A stretch of DNA of 64,000 bases from Burkholderiaceae bacterium (lineage in GTDB: Bacteria > Pseudomonadota > Gammaproteobacteria > Burkholderiales > Burkholderiaceae_B): NCBI GenBank assembly GCA_030728985.1, contig JANQYI010000009.1, positions 1 to 64,000 on the forward strand, written 5' to 3'. The position numbers and the translations under genes are program-made. Shown piece after piece: positions 55,112-62,821 of the stretch (the first letter of the stretch is position 1; each line of letters starts with the position of its first letter). The notes beneath the pieces are model-generated. The model made no database searches, was not told where the DNA came from, and saw only the letters and a program-made list of their open reading frames with translations.

Positions 55112-55987
55112 TTATTTCCCCCGCACGGCCAGACTCGCACTAAAAATCGCAGCCATCATCACCGCCGCACCGACAAGCATGCGGGCTGAAGGCATTTGAT
55201 CAAACAGCATCCAGGCAAAAAGAATCGCATACAGCGGCTCGGATGCGACCACCAGACCCGCTGTCCTGGCGGGTAGCTGTCTCAGGCTCGAGACGAACAG
55301 CCAGTGAGCCAGTCCGGTACAAACCATCCCCAACGCCGCAATCAACAACCAATCTGAGACGCTGACTTGCCCTAAAGATGAGGCAACCCAGGGGAACAGA
55401 AAGATAAAAACAAACGCATTTTGAAGACCTGCGACTTGAAAAGCGTTGATGTGGCTCAATCTGCGTCGATTCAATACCGCCAACACTCCAAAAGCGGCTC
55501 CAGACAACACCCCCCAGACAAGCCCCTCGGTTCCCTGATCAGCCCATTCAAAAGACGGTGTGATTAACACAAGACCAAGACTGACTAACAACAAACGTAA
55601 CCATTCGGCTCGCCCAACTTTTTCCCGCAACAATATGGCCTCGATGAGCGTGATAAAGGCGGGAAAGCTCGCGAAACCAAGTGTAGCGACCGCAACCCCA
55701 CCCACTTTGACCGCAAAGAAGAAAGTCACCCAATGCACGGCAAGCATGGCGCCGCTGAATAAAAAGGCCGCCGGTTGTCTGCGCCAAGAAGCGTTCGTGC
55801 TTGCCCACTGAGCGCTCTCTTTTGAAAAAAGACGGCTCAATACGATTAACGTGAACACGGCAAATAAAGCGCGCCCCCACGTGATCATCAACGCATCAGC
55901 GGTAATCAGGGCACCGAAAATCCCGGTCGCGCCAAACAGTATCGCGACGAAATGAATCGCAAACAAAGACTGCAATCGTGTCAGCAA
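55112..55987 (-). CDS. EamA-family (DMT superfamily) transporter
   Basis: A 291-residue protein with about ten hydrophobic helices in two EamA repeats (first half from AIHFVAILFGATGIFGA, second half from GLVWGVLSGAAFGVLAVLNRR), ending in a positive tail. Family members export amino acids or related metabolites; the substrate is not predictable. The TTG start at 55987 is preceded by AGAGG. It converges on queH and is 49 bp downstream of the racemase gene in the same direction, so they may be cotranscribed. Confidence 0.83.
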   Translation of the reverse strand: MLTRLQSLFAIHFVAILFGATGIFGALITADALMITWGRALFAVFTLIVLSRLFSKESAQWASTNASWRRQPAAFLFSGAMLAVHWVTFFFAVKVGGVAVATLGFASFPAFITLIEAILLREKVGRAEWLRLLLVSLGLVLITPSFEWADQGTEGLVWGVLSGAAFGVLAVLNRRRLSHINAFQVAGLQNAFVFIFLFPWVASSLGQVSVSDWLLIAALGMVCTGLAHWLFVSSLRQLPARTAGLVVASEPLYAILFAWMLFDQMPSARMLVGAAVMMAAIFSASLAVRGK

Positions 55988-56036: not shown

Positions 56037-56777
56037 TCAGCGCTTGGGCCAGCCTAGCGGAGCGGCCCAGCCTGTATACACCTTGGGCAATGGGGTCGCA
56101 TAGTCACCGTGTTTGCTCGTTCCGAGTCCCAACGCGCTGAGCGCCTCGGCAAACTTGACGGCCACAGCGACACCATCGATGACAGGCACACCCAAGCGTT
56201 GGGTCAAGGTGTGACAAAGTGTTGTCATGCCTGCACAACCCAAGACAATGGCACCACTGCGATCTCGGCTCAAGGCCTCACGCGCGGCATGCTCGATTTG
56301 TCCAATGATGTCTTCACCCCCATCTTCTAAATCGAGCACGGCGATATCGGTGCCATGCACGCCTCGACATTGATGTTCAAAGCCATAGCGTTGCACTAAG
56401 CGCTCAGCGATGATGCATGTCCGTGTCATGGTTGTCACCACTGAAAAACCGGTCGCGAGCATGCTGGCGGCATGAAAGGCAGCTTCCGCGATGCCCAACA
56501 CGGGGGCGGCCGTTGCCTCACGCGCGGCCTCTAATCCTGGGTCGCCAAAACACGCTAGAACGACCGCATCAGGCCGCCAAGTTTCGGCGAGTTTGACTTG
56601 CTCCGCCACACCCGCAGCGGCGAAAGCTTCGTCGTAATGCCCCTCGATCGATAAAGGACCAAAGCTGGGTTGAGTTGCAACAATTTCTGTCGTTGAATGC
56701 GCCACTGCCTGAGCGCCTTTTGCAATCGCAGCCGTCATCGCAGTAGAGGTATTAGGGTTTATGAGAAGTAGTTTCAT
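56037..56777 (-). CDS. Asp/Glu/hydantoin racemase family protein
   Basis: A 246-residue cofactor-independent racemase starting MKLLLINPNTS (ATG at 56777). The two catalytic cysteines of the family are present: Cys76 in LACFGDPG and Cys181 in VLGCAGM. The family includes hydantoin and allantoin racemases and related decarboxylases. Hydantoin/allantoin-type activity fits the residues but not exclusively. It is transcribed divergently from the ABC importer, and two NtrC-like sites lie 44-100 bp upstream of its start, so a nitrogen-source role is likely. Confidence 0.85.
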   Translation of the reverse strand: MKLLLINPNTSTAMTAAIAKGAQAVAHSTTEIVATQPSFGPLSIEGHYDEAFAAAGVAEQVKLAETWRPDAVVLACFGDPGLEAAREATAAPVLGIAEAAFHAASMLATGFSVVTTMTRTCIIAERLVQRYGFEHQCRGVHGTDIAVLDLEDGGEDIIGQIEHAAREALSRDRSGAIVLGCAGMTTLCHTLTQRLGVPVIDGVAVAVKFAEALSALGLGTSKHGDYATPLPKVYTGWAAPLGWPKR

Positions 56778-56820
56778 CGGTTTTCTTGGTTTACCTTGGT
56801 TACTATTGAAACAAAGCTCT

Positions 56821-56837
56821 TGCACCAAACTGGATAA
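56821..56837. promoter_or_regulatory. NtrC-like binding site 1
   Basis: TGCACCAAACTGGATAA matches the enteric NtrC consensus TGCAC-Y-N5-R-GTGCA at 9 of 12 defined positions, with a perfect left half. Centre is about 154 bp upstream of the predicted sigma-54 transcription start, a usual enhancer distance. Confidence 0.5.
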
Positions 56838-56859
56838 AAATGCCCCAAAATGGGCATAG

Positions 56860-56876
56860 AACACTAGAGTGGTGCA
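56860..56876. promoter_or_regulatory. NtrC-like binding site 2
   Basis: AACACTAGAGTGGTGCA matches the same consensus at 10 of 12 defined positions, with a perfect right half. Its centre is 39 bp from that of site 1. A third weaker dyad, TGCCC-N6-GGGCA (56841-56856), lies between them. Confidence 0.55.
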
Positions 56877-56956
56877 GCCAAACTTAAAAAGTTTAAAGAG
56901 AATTGAAAAAAATAGGGTCGTCTGCGCGTAACTTAAGACGTACTTTACTCAAAGAA

Positions 56957-56972
56957 TGGCACGATTTTTGCT
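56957..56972 (+). promoter_or_regulatory. sigma-54 (RpoN) -24/-12 promoter of the ABC importer
   Basis: TGGCACG, four bases, TTGCT: a full match to the sigma-54 consensus with GG (56958-56959) and GC (56970-56971) at the required 10-bp spacing. The predicted transcription start is near 56983. Downstream is the importer operon at 57136. Confidence 0.85.
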
Positions 56973-56982
56973 TAGTAAAAAG

Positions 56983-56998
56983 ACGTATTTCAATACGT
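56983..56998. repeat. ACGTATT dyad with flanking ACGTACT boxes
   Basis: ACGTATT-TC-AATACGT is a perfect 16-bp dyad at the predicted transcription start. Single boxes ACGTACT lie at 56938-56944 and 57002-57008. The four copies share the consensus ACGTAYT and could be operators for an unidentified regulator. Confidence 0.5.
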
Positions 56999-57135
56999 AA
57001 AACGTACTACTGGTCATGCATCGGTCACGTTGGTTCACACCAGCTGGAGGTAGACAACTCAGACCGGTCTAAAAGTATCAGATTTGCAGCACAACCTGTT
57101 AGCTATATTTTTACAACCGAATTAATGGAGTTTCC

Positions 57136-58812
57136 ATGAAACAACACACCTTGATTTCCCGCTTGGTCGGCAAACCACTCGGATTAACCGTCCTGACCGC
57201 GGCGCTTGCTTTGGGCGCAGCGATGCCTGCTTCGGCGCAAGAAAAAGTGCTGCGCATTGGCATGACTGCTGCAGATATTCCACGCACATTGGGTCAGCCT
57301 GACCAAGGTTTCGAGGGCAATCGTTTCACCGGTATCCCGATGTACGATTCGTTGACACAGTGGGATCTCTCCAAGACAGACGTCCCGAGCGTGGTGATCC
57401 CCGCTCTTGCTACCTCTTGGGCAGTGGATGCCAACGACAAGAAGAAATGGGTCTTTAAACTGCGTCCAGGCATCAAATTTCACGATGGCTCAGCCGTCAA
57501 TGCCGATGTTATCGTCTGGAACGTTCAAAAAGTACTTGATAAAAATGCGCCACAATTTGACGCTTCTCAAGTTGGTGTGACCGCTTCGCGCATGCCAACA
57601 CTGCGCAGTGCGAAAAAAATTGATGATTTGACTGTCGAATTGACAACCAGCGAACCCGATGCGTTCCTGCCTATCAATCTGACCAACCTGTTCATCGCAT
57701 CGCCCGCCCATTGGAACAAAAAGCTTTCTGCCGTGCCTGCGTCTGTGACAGCTCCAGCAGATCGCTCCAGACAAGCTTGGGCTGCTTTTGCTGCCGACCC
57801 TTCGGGTAGTGGCCCCTTCAAGATGGCACGCTTTGTTCCCCGCGAGCGCCTCGAGATGGTCGCCAACAAAGACTACTGGGACCCAAAGCGAAAGCCAAAA
57901 ATCGACCGCGTTGTTTTGTTACCGATTCCTGAGGCTAATGCACGCACAGCTGCACTTCTCTCCGGACAAGTAGACTGGATTGAAGCGCCAGCACCTGACG
58001 CAATGCCACAGATCAAGCAGCGCGGCTTTACTATCTACAGCAACCCCCAGCCTCACGTCTGGCCCTGGCAGCTATCCTTCGCTGAAGGTTCGCCTTGGCT
58101 TGACAAGCGTGTGCGCCAAGCCGCTAACCTCTGCGTGGATCGCGAGGGTCTCAAGACGCTACTTGGTGGCATCATGGGCATTCCTAAGGGCACCATGGCC
58201 CCAGACCACCCTTGGTTTGGTAAGCCTTCTTTTGACGTGAAATACGATCCAAAAGCTTCGCAAAAGCTGATGGCTGATGCAGGTTTCTCAGCGGCAAAGC
58301 CTTTAAAAGTTAAGGTGCAGATTTCGGCTTCCGGTTCAGGTCAAATGCAACCACTGCCGATGAACGAATTCGTGCAAGAGTCACTGAAAAAGTGCTTCTT
58401 TAACGTCGAATTCGATGTGATCGAGTGGAATACCTTGTTCACTAACTGGCGTAAAGGTGCGAAGGATCCATCGGCCAACGGTGCCAATGCCACCAACGTC
58501 AGCTTCTCGGCCATGGATCCATTCTTTGGCATGGTTCGTTTCAGCAGCAAGAGTACCTTCCCACCCGTGTCAAACAACTGGGGTTACTACAACAACCCAC
58601 AAGTTGAAGCACTCGTGACCAAGGCACGTAATACGTTTGATGCAAAAGAGCGTGATGTTGCTTTAGCCAATCTTCATACGCAAATCGTCAACGATATCCC
58701 TTTTGTTTGGATTGCCCACGACGCAGGTCCTCGCGCGATGAGTAAGCGAGTTAAAGATGTTGTGCAACCACAAAACTGGTTTATCGACATTGCGACAATG
58801 AACATGCAGTAA
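57136..58812 (+). CDS. oligopeptide/opine-type ABC transporter substrate-binding protein (family 5)
   Basis: A 558-residue periplasmic binding protein with a signal peptide cleaved after ASA (Ala34). It has the family 5 core: DSLTQWDLSKTDVPSVVIPALATSW, WVFKLRPGIKFHDGSAVNADVIVWN and the C-terminal lobe AANLCVDREGLKTLL. The family binds peptides, nickel chelates, opines, glutathione or other nitrogenous ligands. The ligand is not readable here, but the sigma-54 promoter and adjacent racemase suggest a nitrogen source. A terminator directly after the gene should make it the most abundant product of the operon. Confidence 0.9.
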   Translation: MKQHTLISRLVGKPLGLTVLTAALALGAAMPASAQEKVLRIGMTAADIPRTLGQPDQGFEGNRFTGIPMYDSLTQWDLSKTDVPSVVIPALATSWAVDANDKKKWVFKLRPGIKFHDGSAVNADVIVWNVQKVLDKNAPQFDASQVGVTASRMPTLRSAKKIDDLTVELTTSEPDAFLPINLTNLFIASPAHWNKKLSAVPASVTAPADRSRQAWAAFAADPSGSGPFKMARFVPRERLEMVANKDYWDPKRKPKIDRVVLLPIPEANARTAALLSGQVDWIEAPAPDAMPQIKQRGFTIYSNPQPHVWPWQLSFAEGSPWLDKRVRQAANLCVDREGLKTLLGGIMGIPKGTMAPDHPWFGKPSFDVKYDPKASQKLMADAGFSAAKPLKVKVQISASGSGQMQPLPMNEFVQESLKKCFFNVEFDVIEWNTLFTNWRKGAKDPSANGANATNVSFSAMDPFFGMVRFSSKSTFPPVSNNWGYYNNPQVEALVTKARNTFDAKERDVALANLHTQIVNDIPFVWIAHDAGPRAMSKRVKDVVQPQNWFIDIATMNMQ

Positions 58813-58823
58813 GCTTGTTAAGG

Positions 58824-58858
58824 CTCGCCACATCGTGAGGATGTGGCGAGTTTTTTTT
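58824..58858 (+). terminator. intercistronic terminator/attenuator in the ABC operon
   Basis: CTCGCCACATC (58824-58834) and GATGTGGCGAG (58840-58850) form a perfect 11-bp stem with a 5-base loop, followed by eight T. It lies 12 bp after the binding-protein stop and 56 bp before the first permease gene, so read-through must feed the rest of the operon. Confidence 0.92.
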
Positions 58859-58913
58859 GTGCAGCGTTTTAAGATATTTTTGATATAAAACCCTTTTCCT
58901 GAGACCTCCTCTA

Positions 58914-59867
58914 ATGCTGAGCTTTCTTCTGAGGCGTCTGGTTTACACCCTCCCTATCATGGTAGGCGTAGCACTCGTCTGTTTCTCCCTGGTTCATCTG
59001 GCGCCAGGAGATCCCCTAATGGCAATCTTGCCCCCGGATGCATCACAAGACTTACGCGATCAACTGATTGAACTCTATGGTTTTAATCGTTCCTACCCTG
59101 AACAATTTTTTCATTGGGTGTGGCGCGCTATTCAAGGAGATCTCGGCACCTCCATCGCAACAAACCGACCCGTCACGGACGAAGTACTCAAAGCGGTCAG
59201 TAATACCCTCAGGCTCGCGGTATTTGCGACCATCATCGGTTTTATTTTTGGCAGCTTATTTGGTTTTGTTGCGGGTTACTTCCAGAACTCTTGGGTCGAT
59301 AAAGCAGCCTCCCTGACTTCCGTGCTAGGTGTAAGCGTGCCTCACTATTGGCTCGGCATGGTGATGGTCATCATTTTTAGCTCAACCCTCATGTTGCTTC
59401 CTCCAGGAGGAGCGGGGCCGGGTGGTTCGGCGGACTGGATCTGGAACTGGGAGCATATGAAGCATCTCATTTTGCCCGCCGTCACCATGAGTGTGATTCC
59501 AATGGGTATCATCGCCCGCACCGTTCGCGCACTGGTCGCGGATATTTTGGCCCAGGAATTTATTGTTGGCTTACGGGCCAAGGGTATGACTAATGTAGGG
59601 ATCTTCATGCACGTCGTGAAAAACTCTGCACCGACTGCATTGGCCGTCATGGGTTTGCAGCTTGGTTACCTGCTCGGCGGATCTATTCTGATCGAAACCG
59701 TATTTTCCTGGCCGGGAACGGGATTTTTACTCAATGCAGCGATCTTCCAACGAGACTTACCTCTTTTGCAGGGCACGATTCTTGTGCTTGCGATGTTTTT
59801 CGTTGTGCTCAACATGATCGTAGATGTCATTCAGACCCTGCTCGATCCTCGCATCGCGCGTAGCTAA
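58914..59867 (+). CDS. ABC transporter permease (DppB/OppB type)
   Basis: A 317-residue inner-membrane permease with six predicted helices starting MLSFLLRRLVYTLPIMVGVALVCFSLVHLAPGDPL, the hallmark opening of DppB-type proteins. The EAA-loop region is RALVADILAQEFIVGLRAKG. Forms the translocation channel with the following permease. Confidence 0.93.
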   Translation: MLSFLLRRLVYTLPIMVGVALVCFSLVHLAPGDPLMAILPPDASQDLRDQLIELYGFNRSYPEQFFHWVWRAIQGDLGTSIATNRPVTDEVLKAVSNTLRLAVFATIIGFIFGSLFGFVAGYFQNSWVDKAASLTSVLGVSVPHYWLGMVMVIIFSSTLMLLPPGGAGPGGSADWIWNWEHMKHLILPAVTMSVIPMGIIARTVRALVADILAQEFIVGLRAKGMTNVGIFMHVVKNSAPTALAVMGLQLGYLLGGSILIETVFSWPGTGFLLNAAIFQRDLPLLQGTILVLAMFFVVLNMIVDVIQTLLDPRIARS

Positions 59868-59883
59868 GGAACAGGGAACTCAT

Positions 59884-60777
59884 ATGCTTAATATCACTGT
59901 TGACCCCTCTAAAGTCCCTGCCGTAGTCATGGAGAGATCCACTGGCTATTGGAAAAACGTCGGTCAACGCTTTATGCGCGACAAGGTTGCCGTTGGTGCG
60001 GGTATTGTCATCCTGATTTTGCTGATCATGGCTGTTTTTGGACCTTGGCTCGTGCCGCACGACCCCTTTCAGTCGTCCATCATGAAGCGGCTCAAGCCCA
60101 TCGGTTTTCCTGACCATCTTCTGGGGACCGATGAATTAGGTCGCGATATGCTAAGCCGTCTCGTGGTGGGCACCAAGCTCTCCCTGTTTATGGGCATTAC
60201 GCCTGTAATCCTAGCGTTTGGCATTGGCTCTGTGATTGGCCTGGTCGCCGGTTATGCCGGTGGCAAAATCAACACGGTGATTATGCGTACGATCGACGTG
60301 TTTTATGCCTTTCCTTCTGTGCTCTTGGCGATTGCGCTTTCCGGTGTCTTGGGTGCGGGTATCACCAACTCACTCATCTCACTGACCATCGTCTTTATTC
60401 CCCCCATTGCACGCGTGGCGGAAAGCGTGACCACACAGATTCGAGGTCGTGACTTTGTCGACGCAGCCCGTGCCTCAGGTGCAAGCGCCTTCACCATCGT
60501 GCGCGTGCACGTCTTGGGTAACGTCTTAGGACCCATTTTCGTTTACGCGACAAGCTTGATCGCCGTGTCCATGATTTTGGCCTCCGGCTTGAGTTTTCTG
60601 GGCTTGGGCGTCAAGCCTCCCGAGCCAGAGTGGGGGCTGATGCTCAATACGCTTCGCACCGCGATCTATATTCAACCTTGGATCGCCGCCCTGCCCGGCG
60701 TGATGATTTTTGTGACTTCGATTGCCTTTAACCTGCTCTCGGATGGCCTGCGTACCGCCATGGAGATCAAGAACTAA
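59884..60777 (+). CDS. ABC transporter permease (DppC/OppC type)
   Basis: A 297-residue permease (ATG at 59884, preceded by AAGGA and AGGGA). It has an N-terminal helix (VGAGIVILILLIMAVFGPWLV), the DppC-type motif HLLGTDELGRDMLSRLVVGTKLSL and the EAA loop (FVDAARASGASAFTIVRVHVLGNVLGP). It overlaps the next gene as TAATG. Confidence 0.93.
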   Translation: MLNITVDPSKVPAVVMERSTGYWKNVGQRFMRDKVAVGAGIVILILLIMAVFGPWLVPHDPFQSSIMKRLKPIGFPDHLLGTDELGRDMLSRLVVGTKLSLFMGITPVILAFGIGSVIGLVAGYAGGKINTVIMRTIDVFYAFPSVLLAIALSGVLGAGITNSLISLTIVFIPPIARVAESVTTQIRGRDFVDAARASGASAFTIVRVHVLGNVLGPIFVYATSLIAVSMILASGLSFLGLGVKPPEPEWGLMLNTLRTAIYIQPWIAALPGVMIFVTSIAFNLLSDGLRTAMEIKN

Positions 60778-61832
60778 TGAATACCACTGTGAAAAACAAT
60801 ACAGATATCGGTGGTCAGGCGCAACCCCTACTGATGGTCAAAAACTTGATCAAGCACTTTGCGCTGAAAAAAGACATGCTTGGTCGAGGTGGTGGTGTGG
60901 TACGCGCCGTCGACGGCATCGACTTTATGGTCCGCAAAGGAGAAACGCTTGGCGTGGTCGGTGAGTCAGGCTGTGGCAAATCCACCACCGCTCGTTTACT
61001 GATGAATCTCATCACCCCTGACAATGGCGATATCATTTTTGACGGGCTGTCCGTTGGCAGTCGTGAACTTTCCCTCAAAGAATTTCGCCGTCAAGCACAA
61101 ATGGTGTTTCAAGATAGCTACGCCTCGCTCAACCCTCGCCTGACGATCGAGGACTCCATTGCGTTTGCTCCTCAAGTTCATGGCGTTTCAAAGGATGAGT
61201 CGATTGAACGCGCGAGAGATCTCTTGCGTCGTGTCGGCCTCGATCCTGTTCGCTTTGCCGAACGCTACCCGCATGAGTTGTCCGGTGGACAGCGTCAACG
61301 TGTCAATATTGCGCGCGCTTTGGCGTTGCAATCACGACTGATTATTTTGGATGAGGCAGTCTCAGCGCTAGACAAATCGGTCGAAGCGCAAGTGTTGAAC
61401 TTGTTGCTTGATCTCAAGGAGGACTTCGGTCTGACCTACGTCTTCATCAGCCATGACTTGAATGTGGTGCGCTACGTCTCGGATCGCGTGATGGTGATGT
61501 ATCTGGGCCAGGTGGTCGAGATCGGCGAATGCGAAACACTCTTTGAGACACCCCAACACCCCTACACCCGGGCGTTGCTGTCCTCAGTCCCCTCAATGGA
61601 TCCGGATAATCGTACGGAGGAACCTCCTCTGGCCGGCGATCCTCCAAACCCAATCAATCCTCCCTCCGGCTGCCGTTTTCACACGCGCTGTGTGCATGCC
61701 CAAGCAGTCTGTTCAGAAAAAATGCCTCCTCTGGCCATGAGCAAAGACGGGCATGGTGTGGCATGTCTCATGCACGTCGTCAACAGTGGTCACACTGAGG
61801 CGCACAAAGCCGCTCAGGAGGCCGCATCATGA
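60777..61832 (+). CDS. ABC transporter ATP-binding protein (DppF/OppF type)
   Basis: A 351-residue ATPase with Walker A GESGCGKS (62-69), Q-loop MVFQDSYASLNPR, signature LSGGQRQR (about 168-175), Walker B LIILDEAVSALD and the H-loop ISHD. The C-terminal extension carries the oligopeptide-transporter cysteine motif (GCRFHTRC ... C ... ACLM). This extension may bind an iron-sulfur cluster in the family. Confidence 0.93.
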   Translation: MNTTVKNNTDIGGQAQPLLMVKNLIKHFALKKDMLGRGGGVVRAVDGIDFMVRKGETLGVVGESGCGKSTTARLLMNLITPDNGDIIFDGLSVGSRELSLKEFRRQAQMVFQDSYASLNPRLTIEDSIAFAPQVHGVSKDESIERARDLLRRVGLDPVRFAERYPHELSGGQRQRVNIARALALQSRLIILDEAVSALDKSVEAQVLNLLLDLKEDFGLTYVFISHDLNVVRYVSDRVMVMYLGQVVEIGECETLFETPQHPYTRALLSSVPSMDPDNRTEEPPLAGDPPNPINPPSGCRFHTRCVHAQAVCSEKMPPLAMSKDGHGVACLMHVVNSGHTEAHKAAQEAAS

Positions 61833-62821
61833 CTCAAGAAAAACCTTTTATTGATATTCGCAATCTGACTGTCACGTTTACCGGGGGTCGCAAACCCGTC
61901 CGAGCCGTTTCGGGTGTCAGTTTGTCCGTCAAACGTGGCGAAGTCGTTGCGCTAATCGGTGAATCGGGTTCTGGGAAGAGTGTGACCTTGCGCTCAATCC
62001 TGCGACTCCACAACGAACAAAAATCTAAGCTTGAAGGCCAAATCATCGTAGGCGATCAGGATGTGGTCAGTTTATCCAATGCGGATCTGTCTGCATTTAG
62101 GGGGAAAGTCGCTTCCATGATTTTTCAAGAGCCCTTGCTAGCCCTTGATCCCGTCTATACCGTAGGCGAACAAATCATCGAAGCCATTTTGCGTCACGAG
62201 AACATTGGTAAAGAGGCTGCGCGGGCCCGCGCCCTGTCGCTGTTTGAGCGTGTCCGCATTCCAAGTCCAGAGCGCCGGCTAGATGCCTACCCGCATGAAA
62301 TGTCCGGCGGGATGCGACAGCGCGCCATGATTTCTTTGGCCTTAGCTAGTCATCCACAGCTCTTGCTTGCGGACGAACCCACGACGGCGCTTGATGCCAC
62401 GGTGCAAATTCAGATTCTGCTGCTGTTGCGCGAGCTTCAGCGCGAGCTTGGCCTCTCCGTGATTTTTGTGACCCACGACATCGGCGCAGCGGTCGAGGTC
62501 GCGGATCGTATTGCTGTCATGTATGCGGGTCGTATCGTTGAGGAAGGCACGACGCGTACACTGATGCGCACACCGAGGCATCCCTACACACGCGCGCTAC
62601 TCAAGAGCTTGGCGCATGGGAATGTGGCAAAAGGCACTCGACTTGAGACGATCTCGGGATCGCCACCTGATCTGAGTAATTTGCCACCGGGTTGCGTGTT
62701 TGCGGATCGCTGCAGCTTGGCACTTGACTCTTGCCGTGAAAGCGTCCCTGAGATTATCAAGATCACACCTGACCACAGCGCACGCTGCCACCGTACGGAT
62801 CAGACAGCCGTCGCAGTTTAG
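61829..62821 (+). CDS. ABC transporter ATP-binding protein (DppD/OppD type)
   Basis: A 330-residue ATPase with Walker A GESGSGKS (44-51), Q-loop MIFQEPLLALDP, signature MSGGMRQRAMISLAL and Walker B LLLADEPTTALD. The C-terminal motif GCVFADRCSLALDSC has the usual cysteines. Its ATG overlaps the stop of the preceding ATPase (ATGA). The two ATPases are in F-then-D order, the reverse of dppDF. Confidence 0.93.
   Translation: MTQEKPFIDIRNLTVTFTGGRKPVRAVSGVSLSVKRGEVVALIGESGSGKSVTLRSILRLHNEQKSKLEGQIIVGDQDVVSLSNADLSAFRGKVASMIFQEPLLALDPVYTVGEQIIEAILRHENIGKEAARARALSLFERVRIPSPERRLDAYPHEMSGGMRQRAMISLALASHPQLLLADEPTTALDATVQIQILLLLRELQRELGLSVIFVTHDIGAAVEVADRIAVMYAGRIVEEGTTRTLMRTPRHPYTRALLKSLAHGNVAKGTRLETISGSPPDLSNLPPGCVFADRCSLALDSCRESVPEIIKITPDHSARCHRTDQTAVAV

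Follow-up and report, generated by a model that had tools for sequence, protein, structure and literature searches.

In Burkholderia cenocepacia, a dipeptide ABC importer, the urea, nitrate and ureide genes, and growth on allantoin are reported to be NtrC-dependent (PMC5491218), and in a comparative reconstruction of NtrC regulons across Proteobacteria, urea, nitrate and similar genes appear as expansions specific to particular taxa (PMC5343134). The word "racemase" is absent from the main text of the latter study (PMC5343134), and a literature search on allantoin racemase and NtrC together found no paper. Here we analysed a 64-kb stretch of DNA (the window) from a freshwater bacterium, whose assembly spans 2.35 Mb at 86.7% completeness and whose relatives include, by record title, Zwartia species and many metagenome bins. 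The region studied very probably represents an NtrC-activated sigma-54 promoter of a five-gene ABC importer, induced under nitrogen limitation and serving the scavenging of organic nitrogen. With NtrC-sigma-54 promoters of nitrogen-scavenging transporters, such as those of glnK-amtB, urtA and nrtA and of the NtrC regulon of B. cenocepacia H111, it shares the -24/-12 element, the type of half-site and the enhancer distance (PMC5491218). The H111 NtrC regulon also resembles the present one in its NtrB, NtrC and RpoN proteins and its nitrogen-scavenging cargo, which there includes the dipeptide importer and ureide genes (PMC5491218). The present system differs in its three degenerate phased sites, in having another importer of the SBP_bac_5 family and an allantoin-racemase-like gene in divergent orientation, and in that NtrC is the sole strong activator detected. 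This type of switch is well known, and the importer promoter is a well-supported addition to the known NtrC regulon; it adds a deeply conserved importer to the regulon of the Burkholderiales, and tentatively points to a nitrogen source of the ureide or amide type rather than peptides. The promoter, site array, operon, sole strong activator and their conservation are all evident from the sequence.

The importer operon comprises five genes on the plus strand (57136-62821). A domain scan identified the first as encoding an SBP_bac_5 substrate-binding protein of 558 aa (57136-58812), and profile scans identified the remainder as a DppB/GsiC-type permease (58914-59867), a DppC/GsiD-type permease with an OppC_N domain (59881-60777), and two ATPases with oligo_HPY tails (60777-61832 and 61829-62821), the second of which closes the operon. 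This constitution of one SBP_bac_5 protein, two permeases and two oligo_HPY ATPases is that of the DppA/OppA/GsiB-type importers; unlike in those systems, the binding protein here falls far under the NCBIfam cut-offs. Its score was below every cut-off listed (best match 106 bits, against 600), including those of DppA (83 bits, against 1005), OppA (73, against 947) and GsiB (63, against 594), and specificity for peptides, nickel or glutathione is not supported by these profile comparisons. Divergent from the operon lies a gene for an allantoin-racemase-like protein of 246 aa (56037-56777, minus strand), recognized by a PF01177 domain scan and matches to solved chains, followed on the same strand, after a gap of 49 nt, by a gene for an EamA-type transporter (55112-55987; domain scan). 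Among relatives in the genus, two genes beside the EamA gene (c11 and c12) were read by eye as encoding a glycosyltransferase and a ChbG/YdjC-type deacetylase.

Relatives of the binding protein were drawn from 110 loci, consisting of 30 together with the best 80 of 583 confirmed matches, mostly close relatives. Removal of 17 duplicates and of two loci with too short an upstream sequence left 91 listed upstream regions, in which the start codons of partly aligned relatives were picked automatically; as these loci are phylogenetically related, counts among them are not independent. Genomes are denoted by G numbers (G000 being the window's own genome) and loci by L numbers. Three of the loci (L063, L072 and L075) derive from metagenome bins titled Bordetella parapertussis; the locus relates them to Zwartia, and these labels look wrong.

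The initial annotation had described a full-consensus -24/-12 element with a transcription start at 56983, and both features are borne out. The element TGGCACGATTTTTGCT, at 56957-56972 on the plus strand, matched TGGCACGNNNNTTGCW with zero mismatches in a pattern search, carries the GG and GC doublets at standard spacing, and places the predicted +1 at 56983. It is the sole perfect match on either strand of the window, and 4000 dinucleotide shuffles of one strand of the region 56778-57135 produced none. Conservation among relatives was pronounced: the pattern TGGCAYRNNNNTTGCW occurs exactly in 65 of the 91 listed upstream regions and with one mismatch in 23 more, giving 88 regions with at most one mismatch and three exceptions (L058, L128 and L135), against no exact regions and a mean of 1.4 one-mismatch regions (maximum 4) in ten rounds of shuffling. 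Relatives retaining the element include four titled Beijerinckiaceae or Rhabdaerophilum. Starting at the predicted +1, we also identified a perfect palindrome, ACGTATTTCAATACGT (56983-56998), the only zero-mismatch match in the window and a possible operator; in an alignment of eight loci it was found solely in the window and its four closest relatives. Searches for Rfam elements near the promoter returned two sub-threshold matches only (E 0.57 and 0.86).

Upstream of this element, the two NtrC-type sites previously annotated at 9 and 10 of 12 consensus positions, together with a distance of 44 bp between the racemase start and the first of them, were confirmed. Site 1, TGCACCAAACTGGATAA (56821-56837, 9 of 12), combines a perfect left half with a weak right half, while site 2, AACACTAGAGTGGTGCA (56860-56876, 10 of 12), has a perfect right half; the ATG of the racemase begins at 56777. 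Overlooked in the initial annotation was an intermediate NtrC-like element, TGCCCCAAAATGGGCAT (56841-56857), which matches 7 of 12 positions, follows site 1 by 20 bp and precedes site 2 by 19 bp, and is a candidate NtrC site in its own right. No exact copy of the full consensus occurs in the intergenic region of the window, an observation that counts against NtrC control. Searches with the full-length consensus were uninformative as evidence, yielding 57 matches in the window at up to three mismatches against 87 expected, and 233 in the genome at up to two mismatches against 163 for the reversed pattern. When the 179-nt stretch from the racemase start to the -24 element was shuffled, a single site as good as the best one appeared in 41 of 4000 cases and a pair as good in 8 of 4000. 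Judged on sequence, the sites are individually weak, and their weight comes from conservation.

This conservation was examined in 21 genus loci in which the divergent racemase is complete; L038, which carries a racemase fragment and lacks a GCACCA half-site, was omitted from the count. In 18 of the 21 loci, a TGCAC[CT]A half-site corresponding to site 1 was found at an offset of 40-59 from the start codon of the racemase; 15 loci have a TGC[ACT][CT]CA element that follows site 1 at exactly 20 bp, and in 14 site 1 is followed by a CAC[CT]A-type site at 39-42 bp. Across the genus, three predicted sites rather than two make up the phased array. When read on the minus strand (56857-56840), the intermediate site resembles a terminator, with a hairpin and a T run directed towards the racemase; one such hairpin was found in the region against a shuffle mean of 0.6. 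The left arm of the hairpin is not kept in L030-L033, and the terminator reading is disfavoured relative to an NtrC site. Extending the analysis to the listed relatives, the top hexamers recovered de novo from 20-220 nt upstream of the -24 element were GCACCA and GGTGCA, which we take to be the NtrC half-site. Occurrences were counted in 85 loci (the 91 listed, after exclusion of the three that lack the promoter and of three in which less than 150 nt of upstream sequence is available): TGCACC is present upstream of the -24 element in 48 and absent in 37, against a shuffle mean of 13.0 loci, and is present in 27 of a thinned set of 54, against a mean of 8.2 and a maximum of 16 in 200 shuffles. 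Its density upstream of the -24 element reaches 4.18 per kb, compared with 0.24 for the motif reversed, counted over the same sequence, and with 0.29-0.92 for TGCACC in untranslated and coding stretches.

The proteins needed to operate such a promoter are encoded in the genome. RpoN was recognized with TIGR02395 at 423 bits (cut-off 277), and NtrC, encoded directly after an NtrB that also exceeds its cut-off, with TIGR01818 at 670.6 bits (cut-off 558.6). A search of G000 with PF00158, the activator domain profile, gave one strong match, NtrC itself at 234.8 bits; the other five matches, at 20-29 bits, lie above Pfam's low cut-off, far under the true activator, and one of them corresponds to an ORF of the window that we read as clpB-like. 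Across the 32 genomes of the genus set, in which activators were counted at E <= 1e-30, exactly one was found in 22 genomes, among them G005, G014 and G016, which are listed as 98-100% complete. The family model was applied to classify the activator as NtrC in G000 only; elsewhere in the genus the single activator is predicted to be NtrC from the same profile span and a frame of about 500 aa. Because 22 of the 32 genomes have exactly one activator, sigma-54 promoters in this genus would almost necessarily be NtrC promoters, and NtrC is the predicted near-obligatory activator of the single-activator genomes. Two of these 22 have no importer match and two have fragments only; all of the remaining 18 carry an exact TGGCAYRNNNNTTGCW upstream of the importer, and where 150 nt or more of sequence is available upstream of the -24 element (17 genomes), the TGCACC half-site is present in 15. 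Sigma-54 in the genus appears to serve NtrC alone, in which case the sigma-54 regulon could be read as the NtrC regulon, offering a simple setting for tests of enhancer architecture.

Searching the entire genome for TGGCACGNNNNTTGCT identified six exact places, compared with two for the reversed pattern, a background that weighs against NtrC-sigma-54 control of the importer. The first is the importer promoter, and the four others examined precede urtA (TIGR03407 over cut-off), a gene for an NrtA/CmpA-like binding protein (PF13379, with nitrate-transport relatives in the PDB), a P-II gene (180.4 bits, cut-off 181) and a TorF family porin gene. The sixth, on contig C35, is identical in its 16 letters to the P-II one, and the contig looks like a near-duplicate. 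Contigs C22 and C35 are identical in their -24/-12 letters and both have TGCACTTACATACTGCA sites close to the contig start, probably as a result of redundant assembly. At the P-II promoter the same layout of strong half-sites was observed, at -138 and -108 from the -24 element, and the sites of the nitrate-type promoter were located at -80 and -59. Convincing NtrC half-sites are lacking at the urtA and TorF promoters, which counts against a simple site rule and against NtrC control of the importer.

Control of the importer by NtrC and sigma-54, as originally proposed, is nevertheless supported by the deep conservation of the promoter, the enrichment of half-sites and the presence of NtrC as sole strong activator, all of which were observed at the sequence level. 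Under nitrogen limitation, NtrB would phosphorylate NtrC, which would then bind the three sites, phased at about 20 bp and centred near -154, -134 and -115, and through DNA looping drive open-complex formation by an RNA polymerase-sigma-54 holoenzyme parked at the -24/-12 element. The importer would thereby be induced to scavenge an organic nitrogen compound, and the racemase, probably linked to it in function, would have a separate promoter, adjacent to the NtrC array and not dependent on sigma-54. We infer NtrC binding and activation, and likewise the substrate of the importer discussed below.

Against this reading, the region might hold an ordinary sigma-70 promoter with a -24/-12 match arising by chance. 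The one sigma-70-like match found in the region (9 of 12) lies on the minus strand and is equalled in number by shuffles, and the retention of the -24/-12 element in nearly all listed relatives contradicts such a promoter; we consider it exceedingly improbable and rejected it. A more serious alternative accepts the sigma-54 promoter as genuine and assigns it to another, locus-specific enhancer-binding protein that is missing from the assembly, TGCACC being either the site of that protein or incidental. A second activator could indeed be absent from an assembly of this completeness, since 9 of the 32 genus genomes carry 2-7 activators (and G013, 89% complete, has zero PF00158 matches at the same threshold), and both this diversity and the 37 listed loci without TGCACC weaken the case for NtrC. 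So do two single-activator genomes, G003 and G014 (the latter 100% complete), neither of which has a TGCACC half-site upstream; in G014 the best full NtrC site has four mismatches, yet the promoter is intact. Because G014 is without a good NtrC site, we raised the weight of this alternative slightly and lowered that of NtrC control slightly. It nonetheless seems highly unlikely, given that most of the genus possesses a single activator, in some cases in genomes that are 98-100% complete, and that the promoters readable in these genomes are invariably exact and mostly accompanied by a half-site which is that of NtrC.

NtrC may further act in both directions, repressing (or, less likely, activating) the racemase from the same array; this is compatible with NtrC activation of the importer, and we regard it as a somewhat unlikely extension of it. 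In its favour, the array begins close to the racemase start, and in 14 of the 21 genus loci 46-47 nt separate the start codon of the racemase from site 1, whose distance from the -24 element varies from about -110 to -175. Because the offset from the racemase start is fixed while the distance to -24 varies, the racemase side seems to be where the array is anchored, probably in overlap with the promoter of that gene. The importer gene is present in 28 of the 32 genus genomes, including all 22 that have a racemase, and a functional link between the two is likely. Activation by NtrC normally needs sigma-54, and no divergent sigma-54 promoter for the racemase is conserved in the genus: on its strand the best -24/-12 candidate has four mismatches in the window and three to four in the eight closest loci (window included), while other genus loci (L037, L043, L045, L051 and L055) have two-mismatch candidates at scattered positions. 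The importer promoter also persists in some genus genomes where the racemase was not found, such as G014, which has no racemase at E <= 1e-60 and an intact importer promoter. Of the earlier proposal that the racemase belongs to the same response, the functional linkage is therefore likely to stand, whereas shared sigma-54 activation is unsupported in the face of this lack of a conserved -24/-12 element. Separately, in L038 (G003) and its duplicate L067 the racemase aligns over residues 1-125 only (68%), with an ORF of 122 aa, possibly reflecting a decaying racemase beside an intact importer and promoter.

The "hydantoin/Asp-Glu-type" label given to the racemase in the initial annotation proved too broad. 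Its nearest solved chain is 3qvj, titled "putative hydantoin racemase", with 128 of 236 aligned residues identical (54.2%), which we take to be the Klebsiella allantoin racemase, and it also matches the allantoin racemase 5lfd at E 3e-47. Cysteines at positions 76 and 181 are common to the solved relatives and presumably catalytic. The predicted protein thus resembles an allantoin racemase, sharing PF01177 and the cysteine pair with the HpxA-type enzymes of the Asp/Glu/hydantoin racemase family; unlike in the HpxA-type setting, no allantoinase gene adjoins it. Elsewhere in the genome we identified a PuuE-type gene of the allantoinase family (TIGR03212 at 517.6 bits, cut-off 424.6) and three genes of the hydantoinase/carbamoylase family. 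Also observed were more distant racemase relatives, 28-41% identical, beside the importer in L081, L083, L108, L109, L116, L126, L129 and L132, and a further PF01177-like cluster in five long loci (L174, L175, L184, L185 and L195; one member scanned). Association of this importer with the racemase superfamily may have arisen more than once.

Further indications of the substrate came from the neighbours of the importer in 35 longer loci of 11-19.5 kb, in 31 of which the binding protein is more than 65% identical. Automatic ORF calls in GC-rich loci were contaminated by antisense ORFs, and neighbour counts use clusters 0, 2 and 29 only. An amidase-family cluster is present in 17 of the 35 loci, directly following the last ATPase gene in seven that were compared (L172, L186, L187, L188, L193, L198 and L199) and similarly placed in L194, and an M20 cluster is present in 14. 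Domain assignments were made on scanned representatives, namely the amidases of L172 and L187 and the M20 enzymes of L172, L173 and L187; those of L172 and L173 belong to the allantoate amidohydrolase subfamily, over its cut-off. The M20 gene of G062 runs divergently from the importer, and beyond its end lie a homologue of the racemase (46% identical) and genes that we named urease-like by reading their sequence. Because the neighbours are an amidase, an allantoate-amidohydrolase-type M20 enzyme and an allantoin-racemase-like protein, a ureide- or amide-type nitrogen compound is suggested as the substrate; we prefer it to plain peptides, with rather less than even confidence.

A distinct arrangement of the promoter was identified among Hydrogenophaga-like relatives. 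In 10 of the 91 listed upstream regions (L069, L084, L104, L107, L119, L123, L127, L129, L134 and L138) the palindrome TTGCATACAA exactly overlies the -12 element, to which it contributes the TTGC. In all ten a second copy, of the form TTGTATACAA in two of them, lies 78-176 bp from the first, in the interval separating the promoter from the divergent gene. A single copy elsewhere was seen in three other listed regions. The long loci L187, L194, L199 and L201 of this group contain no copies of the TTGCATACAA 10-mer besides these two. Three of them (L187, L194 and L199) have a gene of the GntR family close to the operon; two of these genes were scanned and encode GntR and FCD domains, and that of L194 was assigned by BLAST cluster. 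None was seen in L201, which spans only 11.9 kb. Together with the known form of such operators, this co-occurrence makes the palindrome a putative GntR-type operator. Searches for an orthologue of the regulator in the genus gave only matches of 37-41% identity, in 9 of the 32 genomes, and none in G000 at E <= 1e-30. With close to an even chance of being correct, we propose that the Hydrogenophaga-like promoters form a two-key lock, in which a GntR/FCD repressor would occupy an operator over the -12 element and a second copy towards the racemase, so that NtrC and the ligand of the repressor, namely the substrate, must agree, and that the repressor would tie in the racemase, with the window genome relying on NtrC alone. 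On the minus strand of this group we also found a TGGCAAG-N4-TTGTA element with two mismatches that overlaps the region of the GntR-type operator, as do one-mismatch matches in L115 and L123.
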